Of a stretch of 47,421 nucleotides of DNA, positions 43,761 to 46,113 are shown one piece after another. Made by a program: the position numbers and the translations under genes. This DNA is from Blastocatellia bacterium (lineage in GTDB: Bacteria; Acidobacteriota; Blastocatellia; HR10): NCBI GenBank assembly GCA_025055075.1, contig JANWYV010000035.1, positions 75,163 to 122,583 of the forward strand. Direction: 5' to 3'. Below the pieces are notes generated by a model. It did not search any database and was not told the DNA's origin. It saw nothing but the letters and a program-made list of their open reading frames with translations. Positions within the stretch are counted from its first letter, which is position 1. Each line of letters opens with the position of its first letter.

Positions 43761-44285
43761 TTACTCGACGACCAAGCTCGTCGTGAGCGGAATGGGATTC
43801 GTGATGCAATAAGCTCCCGGGCAGCGCTCGCGCGCGAGCCGCTCGATCTCCTCCAGTTTCTCGCGCGGCGCATCGGCGGAGACAGTAACCGTGATCTCCA
43901 CTCCCTCGATGATCGGATTAGAGGAAAGGCCGAGCGTCCGACTCAAGTCCACACGATTTTCGGCAGCCACAATCAGCTTCTTGAGCGTGATCCCTTCCAT
44001 CGCCGCCAGCGTGGCGAACGTCCCAGCGAAACATGATGCTAAGCCGTAGAGGCAGTACTGAATGGGATCGGGTTTCCTCCCACCTCCCCCCATGAACGGT
44101 GCCCCATCAGCTTCGACGACATCTGCGCCCGCCGGATACTCCAACCGCGCGCGAAACTGAGGTTGTCCTTCTTCCAACACCCATTCCCCCTCGACGCGCT
44201 TCCGCTTCTTCGCTGCTTGAGGATCGCGCTGCACATCGGCCGCGAAGGCCATGACGGCTTCAGTATTGACATTGTTCACGCCCAT
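43761..44285 (-). CDS. OsmC/Ohr-family protein
   Basis: 174 residues. The central helix has the first conserved cysteine in GLASCFAGTFATLA, and the second redox cysteine region is RCPGAYCITNPIPL near the C-terminus, so a thiol peroxidase-type active site is possible. OsmC-like proteins reduce organic hydroperoxides or act on related thiol chemistry in the cytoplasm. GAGGAGG precedes the ATG at 44285. It follows the selenocysteine-type disulfide oxidoreductase by 26 bases on the same strand. The pairing suggests that the oxidoreductase may supply electrons to this protein (inference). Confidence 0.9.
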   Translation of the reverse strand: MGVNNVNTEAVMAFAADVQRDPQAAKKRKRVEGEWVLEEGQPQFRARLEYPAGADVVEADGAPFMGGGGRKPDPIQYCLYGLASCFAGTFATLAAMEGITLKKLIVAAENRVDLSRTLGLSSNPIIEGVEITVTVSADAPREKLEEIERLARERCPGAYCITNPIPLTTSLVVE

Positions 44286-44311
44286 CGCTCCCTCCTCGCA
44301 CAAGAATCGGT

Positions 44312-44983
44312 CTACGTTCCAGTTCCTCCTCCGTCTGAGGAGGTCGGCAATGCTGATAACACCTCATCCACAAAAAGCGGCTCGGGGAGCGCCCCCTCGA
44401 TGAACCTCGTCTCGTTGACGACCGTGAGGGGGACGCCCATGACCTGATACTTCGTAATGAGGTACGGGAACTCGGAGACCTCGACCATATCCGCGCGAAT
44501 CCATTCGCACTCGATCGCCATGCGATGTGCCAGCCGCACCGCGGCCGGACAATACGGTCAGGTGGGGGTGACCAAGACCTGAATATGCAGCGGTGCGCTC
44601 ACCCGACGCAGCTTCTCCCGCGTCTCCGGCGAGAGACCGGAATCGGCGCGCGAAACGGCCACGATCGTGTCTATGAGCGCGGCGAACTCGTAGCCGGAGG
44701 GGATGCCGTAGAAGCGAATCCCATAATCCCGCTCCCCCAGGACGACCGTCGCTGGAATCTTATCCACGCCGAAAGTCGCAACCTGCTCGCGATCGAGTTG
44801 GAAGTTATAGACGTCGAGGCGGATCTTGTCGGATACCTCGGCCAGCTCGCGCAAGAGCTGGCCCGTCTCTCGACATGTCGCGCACTCCAGCTCTTGAGTG
44901 AAGAAGACGAGCCGCACGGGATTCACCATGTCGGCTAATCGTCGTTGTAGCTCCATCCGCATGCGTTCATCCAAAAATCCCAT
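44312..44983 (-). CDS. Glutaredoxin-like protein disulfide oxidoreductase, predicted selenoprotein (UPYC)
   Basis: 223 residues if the in-frame TGA at 44560-44558 is read as selenocysteine (position 142). It has two thioredoxin folds, as in archaeal/bacterial PDO proteins. Domain 1 (about 22-112) has the site C34-A-T-C37 and the cis-proline in DKIPATVV. Domain 2 (about 132-220) has QVLVTPT-U-PYC where the family has CPYC, then AAVRLAHRMAIE and the cis-proline in GVPLTVV. Reading continues in the same frame for about 80 homologous codons to a TAG. A hairpin starting a few bases after the TGA fits a bacterial SECIS. GAGGAGGG precedes the ATG; the upstream M50 gene ends 11 bases before. The alternative, a TGC/TGT-to-TGA mutation or base error, cannot be excluded from one sequence. 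Confidence 0.8.
44526..44560 (-). promoter_or_regulatory. Candidate bacterial SECIS element with its UGA codon
   Basis: The UGA is at 44560-44558. Six bases later, RNA 44551-44526 folds as UGU-CC-G-GCCG, loop CGGUG, CGGC-U-GG-(C)-ACA: seven pairs (one G-U), a bulged C, then three more pairs. The apical loop starts 16 bases after the UGA and has G as its second base. Both properties match what is known of bacterial SECIS elements, including a GGU in the loop as in E. coli fdhF. The stem also has to code protein, so chance pairing is possible. Confidence 0.65.
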
Positions 44984-44994
44984 AACGCCCTCCT

Positions 44995-46113
44995 CTACAC
45001 GCCTAACTCCAGGCGGGTACGAATGACACGCATCAGTTGCTCCCGCCCCAAGAGGCCAACGACCCGCCCGTTTTGCACGACGGGCACTTGATTGATGTTG
45101 TGGTCATCCATCAAAGCGAGCACGTCCACAAGCTCCATCTCCGGTGGGACGGCATGCAGTTCGGCCTCCGGAATAGCCACGGCCTCCAGAGGCGTCACCG
45201 CCCACGCCGAGCGCGGCACTTGCCGCACTTGATGCAACGTGATTAATCCCACGAGGCGATCATCCTCGACCACGAGCGCACAGCGCCGCCCCGTGCGCAG
45301 CAAATGTTCCTCCACCAATTCGGCCACGCTCATTCCCCGGGGCAAGAAGAGGCAATCCGTCGTCATCGCCTCCGCAGCCCGAATCCCCCGCAGCAAGCGC
45401 CGTACATCGAGTTGCGCGACGGTCGCTTGTGCGGCGCTCAGGAGGAACCAGCCGATGAATCCCATCCACAATCCGCTCACGAAATTCCCCGAAAACGCGA
45501 TCCAGACACCCGCCACGATGAAGAGATAAGCGATCCCCTGCCCGGCTCCCGAGGCCAAGCGCGTCCCCCGATCATAGCTCCCCGTCGCGTGCCACAACGC
45601 GGCGCGAAGAATCCGCCCGCCATCCAGAGGAAATCCGGGGATCAGATTGAATGCCGCCAACAGGAAATTGATCCGTCCCAGCCACTGGCCGAGTACCTGA
45701 AGTGGCTCGCTGAGTCCCTCGACCCCACGAGAGAAGCCATAGAACGCACTGGCCAGAAGGAAACTCACCACGGGCCCGGCTACGGCGATCTGAAACTCGT
45801 CGCGCGGCTGGCTCGGCTCGCGCTCAATTTGCGCCACGCCACCGAAGACGAAGAGCGTGATCGCACGCACCCGAATCCCTTTGCGCAGAGCGACAAGGCT
45901 GTGTCCCAGTTCATGGAGTAGGACCGAGAGAAACAGCAGAAGGCTCGTCACAACGCCCAAGCTGTACGAGATGCCGCGCGTCCATTCCGGATGCTCAGTC
46001 GCAAATTGCGCCACGAGTGATAAGGTCACGAGCACGAAGACGATGAACCACGAATAATGGAGTCCCACCGGAATGCCGAAGATGTGCCCCAACCGAATGG
46101 TATGCGCGAACAC
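44995..46113 (-). CDS. Site-2-type zinc metalloprotease (M50B) with CBS pair
   Basis: 372 residues. Six or so membrane helices hold the zinc motif HELGH (LSVLLHELGHSLVAL) and the third ligand in NLIPGFPLDGGRILRA; a tandem CBS domain follows (about 245-370). M50 proteins of this subgroup (SpoIVFB/Rip3-like) cut membrane-embedded regulators; CBS pairs usually bind adenine nucleotides and gate activity. Substrate is unknown. The start is a GTG at 46113 with GGAG six bases upstream. It lies 66 bases after citrate synthase and 11 before the disulfide oxidoreductase, probably in one transcript. Confidence 0.92.
   Translation of the reverse strand: MFAHTIRLGHIFGIPVGLHYSWFIVFVLVTLSLVAQFATEHPEWTRGISYSLGVVTSLLLFLSVLLHELGHSLVALRKGIRVRAITLFVFGGVAQIEREPSQPRDEFQIAVAGPVVSFLLASAFYGFSRGVEGLSEPLQVLGQWLGRINFLLAAFNLIPGFPLDGGRILRAALWHATGSYDRGTRLASGAGQGIAYLFIVAGVWIAFSGNFVSGLWMGFIGWFLLSAAQATVAQLDVRRLLRGIRAAEAMTTDCLFLPRGMSVAELVEEHLLRTGRRCALVVEDDRLVGLITLHQVRQVPRSAWAVTPLEAVAIPEAELHAVPPEMELVDVLALMDDHNINQVPVVQNGRVVGLLGREQLMRVIRTRLELGV

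Follow-up and report, generated by a model that had tools for sequence, protein, structure and literature searches.

A predicted selenocysteine-containing protein disulfide oxidoreductase in a Blastocatellia bacterium

Genes and reading frame at the locus

The window (the whole stretch of 47,421 nucleotides that was analysed) carries on its minus strand one reading frame, 44983-44312, that encodes 223 residues followed by TAG and is interrupted only by a TGA at codon 142 (Table 1). The frame starts with an ATG (44983-44981) preceded by a Shine-Dalgarno-like GAGGAGG, and its terminal TAG lies at 44314-44312. The residue context of codon 142 is V-T-P-T-U-P-Y-C-P. The first-pass annotation had described two ORFs in the same frame, parted by a single TGA at the first cysteine of a second redox site, and the context T-P-T-TGA-P-Y-C-P is exactly as described. 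Its expectation that standard annotation would truncate the protein was also borne out, as a strict ORF caller ends the gene at 44558 and yields 141 aa.

The read-through protein scored 279.4 bits against the NCBIfam model TIGR02187 (cut-off 185), to which NCBI itself has given the name PDO_seleno_TRX. The match covers residues 6-210, corresponding to positions 2-208 of the 209 in the profile, and runs straight across the TGA, so the homology continues unbroken as had been claimed. Thus, the protein is a full-length member of the family and has its two redox sites (CxxC and C/UxxC), here CATC at residues 34-37 and UPYC at residues 142-145. In addition, the window's protein disulfide oxidoreductase (PDO) has an extra cysteine at residue 159 (IECEW; 44507-44509, minus strand). 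This residue is serine in all five relatives compared (IESEW in four of the genus and MESDL in another genus).

Table 1. Features of the locus and a second selenocysteine gene of the same genome
Feature	Position	Strand	Basis or remark
Predicted selenoprotein PDO gene (TIGR02187 protein disulfide oxidoreductase), 223 residues, Sec at 142	44312..44983	minus	
In-frame TGA, predicted to be read as selenocysteine (U142 of UPYC)	44558..44560	minus	frame and codon comparison with relatives
N-terminal redox site C-A-T-C (Cys34, Cys37)	44873..44884	minus	translation and alignment of relatives
Predicted C-terminal redox site U-P-Y-C (Sec142, Cys145)	44549..44560	minus	translation and alignment of relatives
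Bacterial SECIS-like hairpin	44526..44551	minus	folding, shuffle test
M50 (site-2-type) protease with CBS domains, upstream neighbour	44995..46113	minus	also adjoins the PDO gene in relatives
OsmC-like protein, Cys not Sec, downstream neighbour	43761..44285	minus	ATG 44285; longest frame from TTG 44303
UXX-star family 1 glutaredoxin-like gene	L132; L002 from about 1480; G000:C23:55733-55942	+	

The TGA could in principle separate two genes, one for the shorter protein and one, with an internal start in the frame, for a second glutaredoxin-like protein, and GTG and ATG codons do occur in frame past it. However, no AGGAGG-like sequence precedes any of these starts (GTG at +7 codons, ATG at +13, +24 and +40), in agreement with the first-pass annotation, which saw no support for a second gene. 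Furthermore, the second protein would have neither the active-site residue nor the first strand of its fold, and the Cys-bearing relatives are single genes. We therefore give this arrangement practically no weight. An altered genetic code was also considered and rejected. TGA terminates 19 of the 29 open frames of at least 280 codons in the window (a mechanical list in which non-genes are included), and because of this the code is taken as standard; TGA is an ordinary stop here, as had been noted before.

The protease, PDO and OsmC genes lie in this order on one strand (43761-46113, minus), and at least two further species of the genus (G001 and G002) have kept this order. G005 still has adjoining protease and PDO genes, followed by a different gene. 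The conserved gene order points to co-transcription and to a redox or peroxide-related role, and the three genes are likely a redox-stress operon. The OsmC neighbour was ruled out as a second selenoprotein, because its frame is free of TGA and its score does not reach the NF041052 cut-off.

Codon 142 and the selenocysteine machinery

The genome that contains the window (3.02 Mb, 98.8% complete, a draft assembly of 59 contigs) encodes the selenocysteine (Sec) machinery. Presence of selA, selB, selD and tRNA-Sec had been named as a check on the selenoprotein reading, and all four were found: the profile scores were 587.6 bits for SelA, 372.2 for SelB and 370.3 for SelD, and the tRNA-Sec, with anticodon TCA, scored 75.2 bits.

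There are further candidate Sec codons in this genome. The SelD gene has one in-frame TGA in its own active site (G-A-G-U-A-C-K; L020 1480-2529), and the loop of a hairpin downstream of this TGA also holds GGU. Meanwhile, a UXX-star family 1 glutaredoxin-like protein, which scores above the NF041114 cut-off, has two in-frame TGAs, one in UPYT and one at the C-terminus (U-G-V-stop).

The comparison of codon 142 covered 90 sequences. The genome collection supplied 80 loci, and the remaining 10 came from the genomes of relatives and the window's own genome; one species was counted twice (L026 and L108). The codon was TGA in 16 (the window's own included) and either TGC or TGT in all of the remaining 74, and no other codon was found; the homologues thus carry TGA or Cys at exactly this position, which had been proposed as a second check. 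The TGA-bearing members belong to Acidobacteriota, Chloroflexota, Ignavibacteriota and one further bacterium. In four acidobacterial members (L038, L039, L047 and L066), the second site reads UPHC with Sec, and the N-terminal site lacks both cysteines, L/V-x-x-G replacing CxxC. Judged from these motifs, the four may represent a one-site Sec PDO subfamily.

Within the window's own genus, the species G002 and G004 share the TGA. Compared with G004 and G002, the dN/dS of the part 3′ of the TGA was 0.11 and 0.13, respectively, similar to the values of the 5′ part in the same comparisons (0.08 and 0.11). A dN/dS of about 0.1 means that purifying selection acts on the protein encoded past the TGA.

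These results bear on one alternative, in which the TGA truly ends the gene or arose lately as a nonsense mutation, leaving a 141-residue product and a decaying remainder. In its favour are the end point of the strict ORF caller and the TGC of G003, the nearest relative. However, purifying selection persists past the TGA between TGA-bearing species, 16 sequences, drawn from Acidobacteriota, Chloroflexota and Ignavibacteriota, share a TGA at this codon, and the genome encodes the Sec machinery. A true stop or nonsense mutation is thus very unlikely.

The hairpin after the TGA and Sec/Cys exchange

The first-pass annotation had placed a SECIS-like hairpin within 10 bases of the TGA, and the folding confirmed it. 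The first base pair lies 6 nt past the TGA and the loop begins 17 nt past it. The hairpin consists of an 8-bp core stem (44548-44541 with 44537-44530), a GGU loop (44540-44538), a bulged C and three lower pairs. The 36-nt stretch that holds it (44555-44520) folds with -19.3 kcal/mol (z = -2.83), and only 1 of 200 shuffled sequences was as stable. The published rules for bacterial SECIS elements (PMC13188914) are a loop of 3-9 nt, an upper stem of 4-16 bp, a G in the first two loop positions, a distance of 16-37 nt from the UGA and a minimum free energy of at most -7.5 kcal/mol. The 3-nt GGU loop, 8-bp core stem, 17-nt distance and folding energy of the window's hairpin all agree with them. The SECIS of E. 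coli fdhF, folded likewise, also forms a hairpin right after the UGA, with a GGUC loop from 18 nt. Its stem sequence differs, and the core stem in the window is uninterrupted over 8 pairs.

Sec and Cys members were then compared with statistics that treat related sequences as independent: in a synonymous-recoding test, the hairpin excess had a median p of 0.06 in Sec members and 0.49 in Cys members (Mann-Whitney, p = 6.5e-4), and a cruder hairpin score separated the two types best at the position after the TGA (p = 1.5e-4), with one p of 0.005 and two of 0.03-0.04 at eight other positions of the gene. The weakest Sec members had no excess. For the window's own sequence, the recoding p was only 0.07, because the GC-rich codons of the peptide favour a hairpin anyway. 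Stem covariation across six sequences was weak: 95.5% of the cells were paired, with one compensatory pair and no excess over shuffles.

In the tree built from the 90 sequences, 9 changes of the Sec label are required, at least 8 of which are forced by well-supported branches. The genus of the window is divided, with Sec in G002 and G004 and Cys (TGC) in G001 and G003, and the window's PDO clusters with the Cys species on the tree. Meanwhile, the 19-nt hairpin core of the window is identical to that of G002 and G004, and each Cys sister differs.

A sequencing or assembly error that turned TGC into TGA should also be considered here, since the assembly is a draft in 59 contigs and the sister species G001 and G003 have TGC. 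However, a base-call error is unlikely because G002 and G004 carry TGA as well, and the identity of the hairpin core with these two species, which no Cys sister shares, also argues against it. We would allow an error of this kind only a very small chance.

Close Sec/Cys pairs share about 85-90% protein identity. Loss of the machinery was ruled out as the cause of the Sec or Cys state, because the Cys-bearing G001, G003, G005 and G006 retain selB and tRNA-Sec. It is conceivable, though still short of probable, that within one Blastocatellia genus the PDO gene has undergone two or more switches between Sec and Cys while the Sec machinery was kept. Parsimony on the tree does not settle the direction of the change. 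Sec-to-Cys replacement in bacteria is described as rare and named mainly for FdhA and SelD (PMC13188914), so a genus with two gains, or alternatively two losses, would be of some interest, and no earlier report of frequent Sec/Cys interchange in the PDO family was found in the literature. If the switching is real and its direction was from Sec to Cys, PDO would join the short list of documented bacterial replacements. In addition, the species would offer naturally matched orthologues for studying the benefit of Sec in PDO. With such close pairs, natural orthologues rather than engineered mutants can be used to test why selenium is retained in an enzyme or given up.

Proposed mechanism and known relatives

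The frame, family, machinery, codon 142 pattern, selection and hairpin all support the selenoprotein reading of the first-pass annotation. Each of the refuting conditions named there that was checked here turned out to favour this reading. On this sequence evidence, the gene almost certainly encodes a two-domain thioredoxin-fold PDO, with UGA142 decoded as selenocysteine and UPYC as the C-terminal active site. This call mends a real annotation error, since standard annotation would truncate the gene, and does so for a lineage of Acidobacteriota that is represented here by draft genomes.

From these features we infer the read-through, the Sec chemistry and the electron path as follows. SelB with Sec-tRNA(UCA) would bind the hairpin with the GGU loop 17 nt past the UGA and outcompete release factor 2. 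Sec142, with a low pKa and strong nucleophilicity, would then attack the substrate disulfide, and the mixed selenide-sulfide that arises would be resolved by Cys145. The AhpF N-terminal domain and archaeal PDOs serve as models for the N-terminal CATC, which probably relays electrons from a thioredoxin-reductase-like donor to UPYC.

The PDO structures from archaea and thermophiles (1A8L, 1J08, 2YWM/2AYT and 2HLS) have two thioredoxin-fold domains and two redox sites and align over nearly the full length. The alignment to 1A8L covers nearly the whole protein (E = 2.7e-47), and in a residue-level comparison made for this structure, 1A8L has Cys (CPYC) where the window's PDO has Sec. The AhpF N-terminal domain (1HYU and 1ZYN) is related in sequence over residues 4-200; however, in AhpF it is fused to a flavin reductase, whereas the window's PDO is a standalone protein.

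Selenoproteins of this family have been listed before. CHY_0740, a glutaredoxin-like gene of Carboxydothermus with a TGA, was included in an earlier survey (PMC1914089), and a 2026 review lists TIGR02187, with UxxC and the example ABB15282.1, among the selenoproteins predicted with high confidence (PMC13188914). A literature search for selenocysteine with Blastocatellia gave no match. The reviewed entry, a "homolog of AhpF N-terminal domain (Grx-like domain protein)", has the full-length family, the UxxC site and one Sec in common with the window's PDO, which differs from it only in host lineage and sequence. The window's PDO is a predicted selenoprotein of an already known family and motif, and it is not new in kind.
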